DNA from: Planctomycetaceae bacterium
Lineage (GTDB): Bacteria; Planctomycetota; UBA1135; GCA-002686595
Direction: 5' to 3'
NCBI GenBank assembly: GCA_011525785.1
Contig: WYBT01000030.1
Coordinates: 310,001-374,000 of the forward strand
DNA length: 64,000 nt
Positions 54,916 to 64,000 of this stretch are shown here, piece by piece (within the stretch, counting starts at the first letter, position 1; each line of letters begins with the position of its first letter). A program made the position numbers and the translations under genes. Under the pieces are notes generated by a model. It saw nothing but the letters and a program-made list of their open reading frames with translations, ran no database searches and had not been told where the DNA came from.

Positions 54916-55794
54916 GGGCCCGGTGCGGGCGGCGGAAAATGAAAAAAAGCCTTCGCAGGACGCCGGGAATGAGTCATGCTCCTCCAGTCGTCCAAAGGTT
55001 CGCGCGCGTCGCGACCGACGACTGTGCGGTCCGGGTTCAGTCTGGCGTTGGTTGCGCCGCCCGGGTCGTCACCGCCACCAAGGCCAGGCGAGGGCTTCCA
55101 GCCGGGAACTTCGGGCAGGCGTTTTCCGCGGGGTCAGCGGCCGGTGCTCTACGGGGCGTTCGGCGCGCAGCGGCCGCGCGGAAACCTGCACAAGAGCGCG
55201 GAGGGCAGGACCTCGAGCAGGGGCTTGTGCGACGCGGGGCCGCGGGTGCTGCCCGCGCGCGTCGAACGTAGTTGCGCCACGGAATCCGGACGGGTCGGCA
55301 CGGCCGACGCGCTGGCTCGCTCCCGGGCTGTCCGGGGCTGCGTGCGTGGCTTGGGTCTGGTGGTGGGCGCGGGCCGGTCTCGACCGGTTCGCCCCGAGGG
55401 CGTTTCGCGCCTTCGTGCGACGACCGGGACGGGAGGGCGCGTGCGACGACTCGGGCGCACGCAACGCGGCTTTCGCGGGCCACGGGCGCAAGCGCCCGTG
55501 GCGCCGGCGTGGCCACGGGCGAGCGCGCTCGACGAACTGCACTGCAATCCGACGCGGACAGCACCCCGACATGACGCGGACACGACGCGGACCACGGGCG
55601 AGGGCTCCAGGCGAGCACCCCGCGCGAGGAACGCCCGAACCCGATCTTCCCCCGCCCCGGCGCACTCCGGATGCGGCGCTGCGCAGCCTGCTCGCGCGGC
55701 CCGTGCCTGCGCCCGCCGGACGCGACCCCGCTGGCGTGTGCTCGAGCGAGCGCGCACCGCGGAACACAAGTCTCTGAACAAGAGCCTGCTCAAC
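54916..55794 (+). other. Long non-coding region, probable rho leader
   Basis: No convincing gene is seen in these 879 bases; codon choice in every open frame is irregular, with AGG, CGA and TCA codons and mixed third positions. Near its left end an A-rich island (54936-54949) precedes TTCGCA (54952-54957), a 17-base spacer and CATGCT (54975-54980), a plausible promoter with an UP-type element. Transcription from there would give an untranslated leader of about 800 bases before rho. One frame from ATG 54976 stays open into rho, but that ATG overlaps the putative -10. Confidence 0.55.
55479..55502 (+). promoter_or_regulatory. Strong hairpin in the rho leader
   Basis: GCCACGGGCGC-AA-GCGCCCGTGGC is an 11-bp perfect inverted repeat about 290 bases before the rho start. 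The left-arm core GCCACGGGCG recurs at 55512-55521, so two alternative foldings with the same right arm are possible. Confidence 0.5.
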
Positions 55795-57672
55795 GTGACT
55801 GAACGACCCTCCGACAAGGACTGGCAAGAGCTTCCCTTCGGCGCCTTCGAAGCGCCGCCTGGCTACACGCCGCCGATGCCCAAGAAGGCGCCGACGGCCG
55901 TGGACAAACCGCCGGTGCTCCTCCCGGTCAGCGAGCCCACGCTGCTTCCGCCGCGCCGCGACGAGCGCCCGGATGCGGGCCGTCCCGATGGCCAGCGCGG
56001 CGACCGGCGCGGCCGGCGCGGGCGCTGGCGTGACCGCGAACGTCCCGCGGGCCAGGAGCGCGAAGGTGGGGGCCACAAGAACGACAGTGCGGGCGCAGAG
56101 CGCGGAGCGACGCCGTCCGGCGCCGCGCCGAACTCGAGCGACGCGCCCCGCGCGGATGGAACTCGTCCGGATGCGTCTGGCCCCGCCGACGGCGCGCGTT
56201 TCGAGCGCGACGGCCGGCGCCGCCGGCATCGACGCCACCGTCGCCACCGCGACGACGCCGGGGCGCCCGCGGGGGAGTTCGCCTCGCGCGAGGGCGACGC
56301 TCCTGGCGCGGAGGCTGGCGCCGCGGGTGCGGAGCACGGCGAGGAGGCGGCCGATGGTGGCGCCCAGTCCTTCGACTCGCGCGCCGAGGGCGACGTGGCG
56401 CTCGAGGCGGTCAACGGCGGCCCCGCGGGCGAAGCGCGCGCGCGGCAGTACGAGTCCGACGGGGATCGTTCCCAGTCGTGGCGCAAGCGCCGTCACGAGC
56501 GCGGCCCGCGTCCGCAGGACGTCGGCCCCGCTGCCCGGCCCGCTGCGCAACTGCTCGAGGGCTGGTTCGTGGCCGAGAAGGGCGGCTTTGGCTTCCTGCG
56601 GCGCGCCGAGGCGCAGTACCTCCCCAGCAAGGAGGACATCTTCGTCCCGCAGCACCTGGTGCAGCGCTTCAAGCTCCGCGACGGCTCGCTCGTCAGCGGT
56701 CCGTGCGGCAAGGGCAATCAGAGCAAGCACCAGCTGCTCAACGTCGAGACCGTCGACGGCAAGGACCCGCGCGAAGTCGCGAACGTGGTCCCGTTCAAGA
56801 AGCTCACCAGCATCGACCCCGACTTCCACTACGCAGTCGGCGACATCCCGGTCGACGGCCAGAGCGGCGACGTCTCGATGCGCGTGCTCGACGTGATCTG
56901 CCCGGTGGGCCGCGGCTCGCGCGGACTGATCGTTGCGCCGCCGCGCTCGGGCAAGACGATCCTGATGCGCAAGTTCGCGGCCGCGATCACCGAGGGCTAT
57001 CCCGACGTGCACCTGATGGTGCTGTTGATCGACGAGCGCCCCGAGGAAGCGACCGAGTGGAAGCGCACCACCAAGGGCCAGGTGTTCGTCAGCACCAACG
57101 ACGAGGACACCAAGAACCACGTCGAGCTCGCGGAGATCGTGTTCAAGCGCTGCCAGCGCCTGGTCGAGCTCGGCCAGGACGTCGTGCTCTTGCTCGATTC
57201 GATCACGCGCCTGGCGCGCGCCTACAACAACCACGCGGGCACGAGCGGCAAGACCATGTCGGGCGGCCTCGACTCGCGCGCCATGGAGCGGCCGCGCGCC
57301 TTCTTCGGCATGGCGCGCAACACCGAGACCGCGGGTTCGCTGACGATCCTCGGCACGACGCTGGTCGAGACCGGCTCGCGCCTCGATCAGATGGTGTTCG
57401 AGGAGTTCAAGGGCACCGGCAACATGGAGATCGTGCTGTCGCGCAAGCTCGCCGACCGGCGCATCTTCCCGGCCATCGACATCGAGCGCTCGGGCACGCG
57501 CAAGGACGAGAAGCTGCACAGCGCCACGCGCCTGCGCCGCATCCACACGCTGCGCCGCGTGCTGCTCAAGATGAACTTCGTCGAGGCCATGGAGCTGCTC
57601 ATCAGCAAGCTCGAAGACGTCGACAAGATCGACGACTTCTTGAAGCGCTTCGAGACCGATCCCGAAGCCTGA
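55795..57672 (+). CDS. rho: Transcription termination factor Rho with long N-terminal insertion
   Basis: Protein of 625 residues forming the hexameric RNA helicase that ends transcription. Residues about 50-240 are a low-complexity Arg/Gly/Asp/Ala-rich insertion, as in Rho of several high-GC phyla, where it adds RNA binding. The cold-shock-type RNA site follows (LLEGWFVAEKGGFGFLRRAE). The ATPase core has IVAPPRSGKTILM (P-loop near 380, with RSGKT where many Rho proteins have KAGKT), VVLLLDSITRLARAY (Walker B), the Q-loop KTMSGGLDSRA and the R-loop EEFKGTGNMEIVLSRKLAD. The GTG start is uncertain because an open frame continues 273 codons upstream. The next gene follows after 19 bases. Confidence 0.93.
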   Translation: MTERPSDKDWQELPFGAFEAPPGYTPPMPKKAPTAVDKPPVLLPVSEPTLLPPRRDERPDAGRPDGQRGDRRGRRGRWRDRERPAGQEREGGGHKNDSAGAERGATPSGAAPNSSDAPRADGTRPDASGPADGARFERDGRRRRHRRHRRHRDDAGAPAGEFASREGDAPGAEAGAAGAEHGEEAADGGAQSFDSRAEGDVALEAVNGGPAGEARARQYESDGDRSQSWRKRRHERGPRPQDVGPAARPAAQLLEGWFVAEKGGFGFLRRAEAQYLPSKEDIFVPQHLVQRFKLRDGSLVSGPCGKGNQSKHQLLNVETVDGKDPREVANVVPFKKLTSIDPDFHYAVGDIPVDGQSGDVSMRVLDVICPVGRGSRGLIVAPPRSGKTILMRKFAAAITEGYPDVHLMVLLIDERPEEATEWKRTTKGQVFVSTNDEDTKNHVELAEIVFKRCQRLVELGQDVVLLLDSITRLARAYNNHAGTSGKTMSGGLDSRAMERPRAFFGMARNTETAGSLTILGTTLVETGSRLDQMVFEEFKGTGNMEIVLSRKLADRRIFPAIDIERSGTRKDEKLHSATRLRRIHTLRRVLLKMNFVEAMELLISKLEDVDKIDDFLKRFETDPEA

Positions 57673-59503: not shown

Positions 59504-62500
59504 ATGAACGCGCCCGAGCAACCTCCTTCGCGCTCCCCCGATGCCTGCTGGAGCGAGTTTCGCCGCAGCGGGTCTCCGCAGGCGCTCGGCGAGCTGTACG
59601 ACGCGCTCGCGCCTGAACTGCTGCGGTTGGCGACGCACCTGACGCGCGACGTGGCGAGCGCCGAGGACGCGCTGCAGGCGACGTTCCTCGCTGCGATGAA
59701 GCGCTCGGGGTCGTTCGCGGAAGGTGCGCGCGTCACTCCGTGGCTCGTGGGCATCCTGCACAACGAGGTCCGTCGCCTGCGGACGCTCGAGCGCCGTCAG
59801 CCGGACCCCGAGCGCCTGCTCGCAGAGCCAGCGAACTCCCCGGCGAGCGAACTGGAGCGCGCGGAGTTGCTCGAACAGCTCGAGCGCGCCCTCGAACGCC
59901 TGCCGGCGGAGCACCGGCCCGTGCTGACGCTGCGCGTGCGCCATGGCTTGAGCGCGAGCGAGATCGCCGCCGCGCTGGGCCGGCCGAGCGGAACGGTGCG
60001 CTCGCAGATGCAGCGCGGGCTCGAGGAGCTGCGGCGCCTGCTGCCCGCGAGCCTCGCCGGCGCTCTCGCGGGTCTTGGATTCGCACCGGCGCGCGGGCTC
60101 GCGTCCGTGCGCGAGGCGTTGCTGGAACAGGCGGCCGCGCGCGCCGCGGTCGCGTCCGCCGGAGTGGCGCAAGGAGTCCTGATGGCCCACAAGTTCGCGT
60201 TGTCGATCGCTGTGCTCGCGGCCTCGCTCGCCCTGTGGTGGGGCTGGCCTTCGAAGTCGGCGGCCCCTTCGATGCCGGCGGCGGCGCCAGTCGCAGCGAC
60301 GCTCGCAATGCCCAAGGCTGAGTCACCCGCGCCCGACTCCACGAACGCCGCGCAAGAGCGCTCGGCCACGTCCGTCGCTCCGCCGCGCGCGCTCGAAGAG
60401 CGCGTCGAGTCTGCAACTGGTCCCACCGGCGCCGAGCTGGCGGTCACGGTGCGGGCGCCCGACGGAGCGAGCGTCATCAGCGGCGAGGTGGTGCTCCTGC
60501 GCGGCAACGTCGCAGAGGCGCCGCTCGTCGCGCGCAGCGACTCCGAGGGGCGCGCGCTGTTCGAGCAGCTCGAGCCCGGCGCCGCGTACGTGCAGTTGCT
60601 GCGCGGCGGCGGTGCGACGGCGCACTTGCGCCGCGGAGAGCGCACCGAGCTCGAACTGCGATTGGAGCGCGGCGTCGAGGTCCTCGGCCAGGTCGTCGAC
60701 GCGACCGGCGCGCCGCTCGCGGGCTGCGACATCTGGCTCTCGGAGCGCTACCGCGCCAACGTCGGCCACTTCGTGACGCGCAGCGACGCGGACGGGCGCT
60801 TCGCGCTCGAGCACGCGCAGCCGGAGCAGCTGCTGTGTGCGTTCGCTCGCGCGCACGCTCCGTCGCGGATGGCGTCGATCGGCGGCGCAGCGGGCGGACG
60901 CGCCAACGTGCGGCTCGTGGTCGACACGCCCGGCCAGACGTTTCGCGGACGCGTGCTCGACGACGCGGGCGCTGCGATCGCGGGCGCGCGGCTCTTGATC
61001 GGCGACGAGCAGCCCGCGCGCTCGCACCGCGAAGGCGACGGGGGCAGCTCGTTCGCAGCGCCGCCGTTGCGCGCGACCAGCGACGCCGAGGGCCGCTTCG
61101 AAGTCGCGCACGGAGAGCCGGGGACGCGGCGTGTGCAGGTGCGGGCTGCGGGCTTCGCGCCCTTCGACGAGTTGCGCGACCTCGCGCTCGGAGGCGCCGA
61201 GTGCGAGTTGCGGCTCGTGCGAGAAGCGCGGGTCGAAGGCTCGGTGCTCGACGCAGCGGGCGAGCCGGTCGCGGGCGCCGCGGTGCGCCGTGGCGAGTAC
61301 GGCAGCTTCTCCGGCGCGCTGGCCTTCACCGGGCGAGACGGCTCGTTCGCGCTCGCCGGGCTGCCCCCCGGTCGCTTGCAGCTCAGCGCCGAGCTGCGCC
61401 AGTCCGGAAGCGCGGAGATCGAACTCGCCGTGGCGCCGGGCGAAACGGCGCGGGCCGACTTCGTGCTCCGCGAGCAGAGCGCTCTGCGCGGACGCGTGAC
61501 CGACGCGCTCGGCGCCGCACTCGCGGGCTGGGGCCTCCTCGTGGCGCCGGCCGGAGAGCTCGTCGCGGCCACGCACAGCACGCAGACCGACGCCGCCGGC
61601 GAGTTCGCGCTGCTCGGCCTCGACCCCGCGCGCGCGTACACGCTCTCGCTGCACGCTCCCGGTGCGTGGCGCGGCTTTCCGGCGCTCGTGCGCGAGAACG
61701 TCAGCGCTTCGAGCGACGCGCTCGAGCTGGTGGTCGACGACGCGCGCGCGCGGACCGCTCGCGTGGTCGCGCAGGTGCACTTCCCCGACGGTCGGCCGGC
61801 GCAGGGCGCGCGGCTCCAGCTCTGGCACACGCAGAGCCGTCGCAGCTGCGAGGCGGACGTCGACCCCGTCAGCGGCGCCGTCGAAGTCCCGTTCGTGCCC
61901 GCGGGGGAGCTGATGCTCGAAGTGCGGCACCGCGATCATCCGTGGATGCGGCTCGAGCCGCGCACGGTGCGGGCCGGCGAGCTCGCTGACCTCGGGCTGG
62001 TCGTGCTGCGCGAAGCGGCGCGGCTGCGCGTCGAGCTGCGCGGAGCGGACGAAGCGTTGTTGCGCGCCGTCAGCGTGCTGCTCACCGACCGCTCGGGCCG
62101 CGAGAGCGGCGTGCTCGAGCGCGAGGGACTCGCCTTCGTCAGCGGACCGCTCGGCCCGGGCGGCCACGTCCTGCTCTTGCAGGGCGACGGCGTCGCCAGC
62201 GTGCGGCGCGAGTTCGAGCTGCGCGAGGGCGAGCTGGCGCGCCTGGAGTTGGCTCTCGAACCGGCCGGTGTGCGCGAACTCGAGTTCGTGCTGCCTCCCG
62301 GAGCGGCGCCGATCGAGTGGCTCTCGTGCACGCTCGTCGACGCGTCGGGCGCGCTGGTCTGGACGCCGCCGTGGCAGGTGCGCGAGACGCTGCGCGCGCG
62401 GCTGAGTGCGAAGCCCGGCGAGTACCGCCTCCACGCGAGCACGAACAGCGGGCTCTCGGCGAGTCTCGCGCTGCGCGTCGAGTCGCTCGAGCACGGCGGC

Positions 62501-62533
62501 CCGCCGCTGCGCGTCGAGCTGAAGCCGCACTGA
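59504..62533 (+). CDS. ECF sigma factor fused through a membrane helix to carboxypeptidase-regulatory-like domains
   Basis: Protein of 1009 residues. Residues about 20-90 form sigma region 2 (LLRLATHLTRDVASAEDALQ, FLAAMKRSG). Residues about 125-185 form region 4 with its helix-turn-helix (SASEIAAALGRPSGTVRSQM). Residues about 229-246 are a membrane helix (KFALSIAVLAASLALWW). After an Ala/Pro/Ser linker (about 250-305), the remaining 700 residues contain at least five carboxypeptidase-regulatory-like beta-sandwich units (VEVLGQVVDATGAPLAGCDI, EGSVLDAAGEPVAGAAVRRG, LRGRVTDALGAALAGWGLLV). The sigma half should face the cytoplasm and the repeats the outside. No anti-sigma gene is adjacent. The ATG follows a CACAAT -10-like hexamer by about 40 bases. 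Confidence 0.85.
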   Translation: MNAPEQPPSRSPDACWSEFRRSGSPQALGELYDALAPELLRLATHLTRDVASAEDALQATFLAAMKRSGSFAEGARVTPWLVGILHNEVRRLRTLERRQPDPERLLAEPANSPASELERAELLEQLERALERLPAEHRPVLTLRVRHGLSASEIAAALGRPSGTVRSQMQRGLEELRRLLPASLAGALAGLGFAPARGLASVREALLEQAAARAAVASAGVAQGVLMAHKFALSIAVLAASLALWWGWPSKSAAPSMPAAAPVAATLAMPKAESPAPDSTNAAQERSATSVAPPRALEERVESATGPTGAELAVTVRAPDGASVISGEVVLLRGNVAEAPLVARSDSEGRALFEQLEPGAAYVQLLRGGGATAHLRRGERTELELRLERGVEVLGQVVDATGAPLAGCDIWLSERYRANVGHFVTRSDADGRFALEHAQPEQLLCAFARAHAPSRMASIGGAAGGRANVRLVVDTPGQTFRGRVLDDAGAAIAGARLLIGDEQPARSHREGDGGSSFAAPPLRATSDAEGRFEVAHGEPGTRRVQVRAAGFAPFDELRDLALGGAECELRLVREARVEGSVLDAAGEPVAGAAVRRGEYGSFSGALAFTGRDGSFALAGLPPGRLQLSAELRQSGSAEIELAVAPGETARADFVLREQSALRGRVTDALGAALAGWGLLVAPAGELVAATHSTQTDAAGEFALLGLDPARAYTLSLHAPGAWRGFPALVRENVSASSDALELVVDDARARTARVVAQVHFPDGRPAQGARLQLWHTQSRRSCEADVDPVSGAVEVPFVPAGELMLEVRHRDHPWMRLEPRTVRAGELADLGLVVLREAARLRVELRGADEALLRAVSVLLTDRSGRESGVLEREGLAFVSGPLGPGGHVLLLQGDGVASVRREFELREGELARLELALEPAGVRELEFVLPPGAAPIEWLSCTLVDASGALVWTPPWQVRETLRARLSAKPGEYRLHASTNSGLSASLALRVESLEHGGPPLRVELKPH

Positions 62534-62709: not shown

Positions 62710-64000
62710 ATGCACAGCCTCCGCACGCGGGTTCTCGCCGCGATTCTCGCCCCGGTCCTTCTCTCCGTCGCAGTCCGCGCCGATTGCCTGACCGCCTGGC
62801 CGGTGGGCGCGAACGCGAACGACACCTGGGGCGCGAGCTACATCAACTCGAACCCCAGCTTCGCCTTCCAGCGCGAGGTCGCCGACGACTTCGACTTCAC
62901 CGGGCCGATCACAGCGCTGTACGTGTCGGGCTTCAACGGAGGTCCGTTCGGTTCGCCCACGCCGGTCGACGGCGTGTGGGTGCGTTTCTACGAATGGACC
63001 GCGAGCGGACCGGGTGCGCTGCAGTCGGCGACCTTCATCGCGGGCACGGACCCCGCGCTCGGTCTCGATGAGCGGCCGTCGGCGGTGCAAGTGACGCTCG
63101 CGACGCCGTTCTTCGCCACGGGCAAGCACTTCGTCTCCGTGCAGGTCGACTTCACGGACTACGGGATCTGGGAGCCGTGGCGCTGCAACGACAACGCGCC
63201 GCGGCTCTCGACGGGCTACGTGCGCGTCAACGGCGGCGCGTGGGGGCTGTTCACGCCGCTGTTCGCGACGCAGCCGTTGATGGCGGATGTGGCGCTCGAG
63301 CTGTTCACGACTCCCGCGAGCGCCTGCGCGCCGTGGAGCGCGTTGAGCGTGCCGACGCCCGGCCTCGACGCGGGGCTGGTCGACGTCGCCGTGCTGGCGA
63401 GCGGCGAGGTGTGGGCCTTGGGCAACAACTCGGTGACGAGCGGCGCCACGTTGAACAGCTATCCCTTCGCGCTGCGACACAGCGGCGGGGCCTGGAGCAT
63501 CGTCGATCTGCCGCCCGCGCCGACGGCGGGCACAGCGGGTTCGCGCACGACGCTCGAGGCGCTCGAAGCGCGCGCGCCGAACGACATCTGGGCGGCGGGC
63601 GCGCACAAGATCGTGGTTCCCGGCGGCTGGTACGGCCACCAGATCCGCGTCGATCACTTCGACGGAGCGAGCTGGAGCACGCTGAACACGCCGCTCCCGC
63701 CGACCAGCGGCAGCGCGGGCTACTCGGGCTCGCGCATTACCGGCATCAAGGCCTTCGGCGCGAACGACGTGTGGTTCGTCGGCGAGTGGGTTGGGCCGTA
63801 CCCCGGCACGCCCTCGACGAAACCGGCGCTCGCGATGCACTGGGACGGCTCGAGCTTCACCCTCGCGCCGACGCCGAGTGTCGGGCCGTACTTCGAGTTC
63901 GGCCTCGAGGCGCTCGACGGCGTCGCGCCGAACGATGTGTGGGCCGTGGGCGGAGGCAGCGACGGCGATCTCTCGGCGATCTCCTACGTCGTGCACTGGA
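62710..64000 (+). CDS. Secreted repeat protein, N-terminal part (runs off the window)
   Basis: At least 430 residues, with the 3' end beyond the right edge. A signal peptide is present (ATG at 62710; VLAAILAPVLLSVAVRA). Residues about 30-200 form a beta-sandwich-like domain found in planctomycetal secreted proteins (REVADDFDFTGPITALYVSG, HFVSVQVDFTDYGIWEPW). From about residue 215 repeated blocks appear with the motif NDIWAAG / NDVWFVG / NDVWAVG, spaced about 50-60 residues apart, as in Kelch or galactose-oxidase-like beta-propellers. It is probably exported to the surface or medium. The gap to the sigma-factor gene is 176 bases and holds nothing recognisable. Confidence 0.7.
   Translation, partial: MHSLRTRVLAAILAPVLLSVAVRADCLTAWPVGANANDTWGASYINSNPSFAFQREVADDFDFTGPITALYVSGFNGGPFGSPTPVDGVWVRFYEWTASGPGALQSATFIAGTDPALGLDERPSAVQVTLATPFFATGKHFVSVQVDFTDYGIWEPWRCNDNAPRLSTGYVRVNGGAWGLFTPLFATQPLMADVALELFTTPASACAPWSALSVPTPGLDAGLVDVAVLASGEVWALGNNSVTSGATLNSYPFALRHSGGAWSIVDLPPAPTAGTAGSRTTLEALEARAPNDIWAAGAHKIVVPGGWYGHQIRVDHFDGASWSTLNTPLPPTSGSAGYSGSRITGIKAFGANDVWFVGEWVGPYPGTPSTKPALAMHWDGSSFTLAPTPSVGPYFEFGLEALDGVAPNDVWAVGGGSDGDLSAISYVVHW

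Follow-up and report, generated by a model that had tools for sequence, protein, structure and literature searches.

Among the genes in a 64,000-nucleotide stretch of a Planctomycetaceae genome (hereafter the window), one open reading frame on the forward strand (59504-62533) encodes an ECF sigma factor that is joined through a membrane helix to a large repeat array outside the cell, all in a single polypeptide, and carries, exactly where the helix begins, a second in-frame start codon preceded by a Shine-Dalgarno (SD) sequence. Codon choice across the family shows that selection acts on the nucleotides of this internal signal, which looks like a translation start and is conserved as one, not merely through the amino acids it encodes. 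The internal start is probably in use, and we consider it likely that the gene gives rise to two membrane proteins, a tethered sigma-receptor and a sigma-free receptor of 783 residues. Annotation sees one protein where probably two exist.

A sigma factor with its own membrane anchor

The reading frame begins with an ATG at 59504 and runs without an internal stop for 1009 residues, which are laid out as ECF sigma domain, linker, transmembrane helix, stalk and beta-sandwich array. Pfam places, with scores passing its thresholds, sigma region 2 at residues 31-94 (59594-59785; Sigma70_r2, PF04542, 5.5e-10), with the conserved residues D33, D55, Q58 and W80 in invariant columns, and sigma region 4 at residues 124-176 (59873-60031; Sigma70_r4_2, PF08281, 6.3e-13), with its helix-turn-helix intact. 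As in ECF (group 4) factors, sigma2 and sigma4 are the only sigma regions, with conserved core-binding and helix-turn-helix residues, and the PDB matches of the protein found by phmmer are ECF sigma factors only (best 1.7e-12). The sigma domains of the window's subgroup look functional, since the core residues D33, D55, Q58, W80 and R171 (window numbering) are invariant across it. Beyond region 4, AlphaFold2 predicts cytoplasmic linker helices at residues 182-192 and 199-218 (60047-60157), upstream of a single transmembrane helix at residues 227-246 (MAHKFALSIAVLAASLALWW, 60182-60241). Hydropathy finds one hydrophobic segment in the whole protein, at residues 225-243, with a 19-residue mean of 1.84. 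A disordered stalk rich in Ala, Pro and Ser follows (residues 248-305, 60245-60418, pLDDT < 50), and then a tandem array of CarboxypepD_reg-like beta-sandwiches (60419-62530). This external part spans ~700 residues and shows about nine units by eye from the strand pattern, of which Pfam recognises five as separate stretches of CarboxypepD_reg (2.1e-48); a FecR-type periplasmic domain is absent from the Pfam matches of the protein.

A sequence-only reading of this DNA had already placed both sigma regions, a single helix and some 700 residues of repeats in one frame, so that an intact ECF core, its tether and the putative sensor form one polypeptide. Pfam, the conserved residues, hydropathy and structure prediction all agree with it. 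The AlphaFold2 model, built with a 40-sequence alignment (mean pLDDT 83), yields the topology sigma2, sigma4, linker helices, one helix at 227-246, disorder over 248-305 and strands to the C-terminus. In Foldseek, the N-terminal part has mycobacterial sigma E and H as neighbours, and the C-terminal part has pilin, Cna-B and adhesin-type repeat proteins.

The same layout is frequent in the phylum. The window genome gives 49 matches, about 25 of which are distinct sigma-TM fusion ORFs, and a wider collection drawn from 40 relatives and from 294 Planctomycetota genomes brings the total to 173 distinct fusions across the phylum. We treated these as two sets: set 1 contains 104 distinct fusions from the genome itself and its order-level relatives, and set 2 contains 69 further fusions, most of them from other Planctomycetota families, which were collected after the rule for the internal site had been fixed. 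A scan of contigs with the single window protein did not find relatives; with an alignment, the scan matched named Planctomycetota MAGs, its lower matches being mostly generic ECFs. Since the fusion recurs in about 25 intact paralogues of the same genome and in 173 ORFs overall, it is neither a product of chance nor of a sequencing error joining two frames, an explanation that we consider ruled out. The helix is likewise conserved: it went undetected in only 2/107 and 3/72 distinct sigma ORFs of the two collections, at least two of these five cases being explained by an ORF or contig that ends early. In the 173 fusions, the helix lies a median of 43 residues downstream of sigma4.

The lack of a neighbouring anti-sigma gene, also claimed from the sequence, holds for the neighbouring genes scanned with Pfam, where neither an anti-sigma gene nor an obvious partner was found; upstream lie rho and a PMT-like transferase, and the downstream ORFs that were scanned are devoid of anti-sigma domains. 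A zinc-finger anti-sigma domain hidden in the linker was considered and rejected, with the CxxC signature found in 0/173 linkers and no anti-sigma Pfam domain in the linkers of the 43 members scanned. Judged by its neighbourhood, the window protein is not a canonical ECF factor with a separate, adjacent anti-sigma factor.

A probable translation start at the membrane helix

In the window, the site reads AAGGAG-TCCTG-ATG (CAAGGAGTCCTGATG), with the SD hexamer at 60171-60176 (forward strand), 5 nt before an in-frame ATG at 60182. The predicted second product (60182-62533) starts at M227 and retains signal-anchor, stalk and repeats, with no sigma domain. Homologues show a recurring G-x-L-M-x-x-K motif ahead of the helix, whose DNA form is GGAG followed by ATG.

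The rule of an SD followed by a start codon is satisfied in 50/104 homologues of set 1, against 10% of control windows. When amino acids were kept and codons redrawn, the synonymous recoding null gave 14.0 +/- 2.9 sites of 84 (maximum 23 in 500 redraws) versus the 50 observed, and in the out-of-sample phylum set 42/69 fusions carry the site versus 11.2 +/- 2.8 under the null (maximum 20). Codon choice is equally telling: of the 38 Gly codons at the position four codons before the start, 33 (87%) are GGA (background 0.15), and where Val replaces Met at the same offset from the in-frame GGA, it is encoded by GTG in 31/32 (background 0.405, p = 1.3e-11). Pairing with the anti-SD is stronger at the site ATGs, with a median duplex energy of -6.9, than at the 637 remaining internal ATGs of these ORFs (median -3.3; p = 9e-14). 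Moreover, the mRNA is weakly structured at this point, with a 40-nt folding energy of -7.9 kcal/mol, compared with -12.4 at the corresponding position of site-less homologues and about -14 on either side. Near-identity of sequence does not account for the shared motif, since 169 of the 173 fusions are less than 50% identical around the helix and the site-bearing ones have a median ungapped identity of 13% there. A nucleotide logo was also drawn, and it was set aside as proof because its sites had been picked by the SD rule; the proof rests instead on the redrawn codons, the phylum set collected afterwards and the test of Val codons. Selection at the nucleotide level is thus argued by the recoding null, the GGA and GTG codon choice, the weak mRNA structure, the diversity of the sequences and a contrast with membrane kinases given below, and it embraces the three elements of a dual-product gene: an SD, a start codon and low mRNA structure.

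SD-like elements before membrane segments have been proposed to cause translational pausing, and the element in this family does lie directly upstream of the helix, so that it could serve as a pause aiding membrane insertion and not as a start. We regard this as very improbable. Pausing would not require a start codon, yet near the helix 66/102 in-frame GGAGs have ATG or GTG at a distance of 12 nt, vs 18/555 elsewhere, and Val is GTG almost without exception. The mRNA is also locally unstructured, and the Ser/Thr kinases of the window genome that have a membrane helix show a site-like element in only 1/23, vs 11/25 of its sigma fusions (Fisher p = 0.002).

The identity of the ATG/GTG codon also disfavours a programmed frameshift, where the SD would stimulate a +1 shift at an overlapping TGA (ATGA or GTGA) and release a soluble sigma factor free of the helix. 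An A follows the start codon in 60% of sites vs 18% of other ATGs, creating ATGA or GTGA, and with it a TGA in the +1 frame at the start, in 55/92 sites, and the median distance to the +1 stop is 0 codons, as a frameshift would have it. However, such a stop is missing in 40% of the sites, including that of the window (ATGG), no slippery codon was noticed in the sites listed, and the A at +4 is explained by the Lys, Thr, Ser or Asn that comes after the start. A shift would also leave both the start-codon identity and the weak mRNA structure unexplained, and we give this possibility very little credence.

A third alternative is that the protein is strictly a one-piece sigma factor, and that the internal SD and ATG are an unused relic of a free sensor gene which was fused together with its own ribosome-binding site. 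Free sensors of this kind do exist: five sigma-free homologues with the helix and repeats are complete, free-standing genes with similar N-termini (L098 at G037:C180, L118 at G037:C79, L122 at G025:C228, L135 at G025:C257 and L075 at G040:C13). Unfused ECFs occur as well (L327, L328, L329 and L332), and no unfused pair of sigma and sensor genes ending in ATGA was found for this sensor type, the downstream genes of those four ECFs lying outside the search. The patchiness of the site, absent from about half of the homologues, would also suit a relic. But a relic would have decayed, and the SD is instead kept at synonymous positions, although each end branch of the tree carries ~0.5 amino-acid changes per site and the median identity is low; Met and Val are exchanged only as ATG and GTG, and the dip in mRNA structure is retained. 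An unused relic therefore seems improbable to us. As for the claim of a one-piece sigma factor made from the sequence, the fused frame is real, and the protein is probably not strictly one-piece in the many members, about half, that have the internal SD and ATG or GTG.

How widespread the internal site is

The second product appears to be common in the family, and it is neither universal nor essential to the design, since 81/173 fusions lack the site when the rule is applied strictly and its distribution on the sigma-domain tree is patchy, with about 45 changes between presence and absence (many forks being weakly supported). Within the window genome alone the excess is smaller, with the 11 site-bearing fusions of 25 counted above.

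In the window genome, an SD precedes 22% of 119 ordinary ORF starts vs 21% of internal windows, and 3/12 ABC ATPase starts, so that ordinary starts show no clear SD enrichment (L031-L055, L347-L376). This positive control failed because the genome hardly uses SD sequences, and the internal SD stands out for the same reason. These figures agree with published work (PMC5397173), in which few genes of the Planctomycetes studied had an SD. Given such little use at ordinary starts, SD-led initiation may be weak in this genome, although initiation inside a gene cannot be of the leaderless kind. Two related genomes (G016 and G236) have a 16S-type 3' end that contains CCTCC, and that of the window genome was not found in its assembly. 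If the internal start is used as proposed, the family would be a plain example of selection maintaining SD-led initiation where SD sequences are otherwise hardly used.

Two probable products, and how the sigma domain might be released

Translation from the ATG at 59504 would give a receptor with a cytoplasmic ECF end (sigma2-sigma4, linker and one helix, N-terminus inside) and the stalk and beta-sandwich array outside, while translation from the internal SD and ATG (60171-60184) would give the same receptor minus the sigma domain. We infer that both are made in the cell. The short form would begin at the helix and have a Lys close to its N-terminus, as ordinary signal-anchor proteins do, and the full-length form would be the transducer, held at the membrane and presumably inactive while tethered. 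The sigma domain would be freed most simply by external cleavage followed by intramembrane cleavage of the site-2 type, as in IutY, and site-2-protease (M50) homologues are present in the window genome; by this analogy with IutY, release by proteolysis, possibly of the Notch-like kind raised in the sequence-only reading, is the reading towards which we lean.

The alternative is that the sigma factor works while still tethered, either at the membrane or by changing its conformation and with no proteolysis, the linker helices controlling access to RNA polymerase, an idea compatible with either view of translation. The conserved linker motif GLxxVRxxVL, common upstream of the helix in the window's subgroup, would fit such a gate, and some soluble ECFs with C-terminal extensions do work by conformational change (PMC8999054). 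On the other side, IutY, the one membrane-fused sigma factor with an experimentally worked-out activation, uses proteolysis (PMC8999054, PMC5411451), and the M50 proteases noted above are at hand in the genome; we hold action without cleavage to be unlikely.

The short form, in turn, would dilute the tethered sigma in mixed oligomers, or compete for ligand and protease; in its simplest role it could thereby fix the proportion between receptor and tethered sigma, a suggestion that we put forward with some reserve. Still more tentative is the wider idea that the sigma-free receptor replaces the anti-sigma factor across the phylum, as a built-in decoy or mixed-oligomer partner limiting the sigma that can be released. 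If two proteins are indeed made, dozens of paralogues in some Planctomycetota genomes would tune sigma signalling by translation and not by a separate anti-sigma gene.

One-piece membrane sigma factors were already known, namely IutY and ECF48/52/53 (PMC8999054, PMC5826349, PMC5411451), and the fusion described here is a new family of a known kind and not a new principle. IutY of Pseudomonas putida is an ECF243 sigma/anti-sigma hybrid that Prc and RseP cut to free the sigma domain (PMC5411451), so that the sequence-only reading went too far in calling the release of a membrane-fixed sigma factor unsettled. Like the window protein, IutY combines a sigma domain, one transmembrane helix and an external domain in one polypeptide without a separate anti-sigma gene, but it has 374 residues and no CarboxypepD array, and its periplasmic anti-sigma domain, which is coupled to a receptor in the outer membrane, belongs to the cell-surface-signalling type. 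The passages of PMC5411451 consulted here make no mention of an internal start. ECF52 (SCO4117 of Streptomyces coelicolor; also ECF48 and ECF53) resembles the family in joining an ECF sigma domain, a helix, a proline-rich stalk and an external module, which is carbohydrate-binding; it differs in having a cytoplasmic zinc-finger anti-sigma domain and in being restricted to Actinobacteria (PMC5826349), whereas the window family lacks CxxC. Closer in lineage are the planctomycetal ECF57 and WD40-bearing ECFs, with many paralogues and long C-terminal extensions in the same phylum, although the extensions described are WD40-like (PMC8999054, PMC8567305) and not a single helix with an external CarboxypepD-type array.

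For the internal start itself, the nearest parallel is a two-product gene such as cheA of E. coli, whose long and short products come from one gene through an internal in-frame start. Both genes have an in-frame SD and start codon leading to an N-terminally shortened protein; unlike in cheA, the start in the window would remove a whole transcription factor and leave a membrane receptor, and it recurs in a paralogue family throughout the phylum. A full-text literature search, with the main ECF classifications lying outside it, returned no report of an internal start in sigma factor fusions. The family may already be classified under a group number. What distinguishes it from the known fusions is the lack of a cytoplasmic zinc-finger anti-sigma or FecR-type domain, the CarboxypepD-type array and the internal start.

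The surroundings of the gene offer some minor observations. The stretch 54976-57672, named rho from its sequence alone, has a long, highly charged N-terminal extension of low complexity, and ARAGORN calls a tRNA-Thr inside this gene on the reverse strand (57048-57131), possibly a false positive. Downstream, the ORF at 62746-64000 and beyond (L031) seems to encode a signal peptide and matches no Pfam family, and a kinase-TPR gene follows further on, on the other strand. Ser/Thr kinases account for 88 matches in the window genome as a whole, and many of them have a membrane helix, which amounts to a strongly expanded repertoire of membrane signalling.
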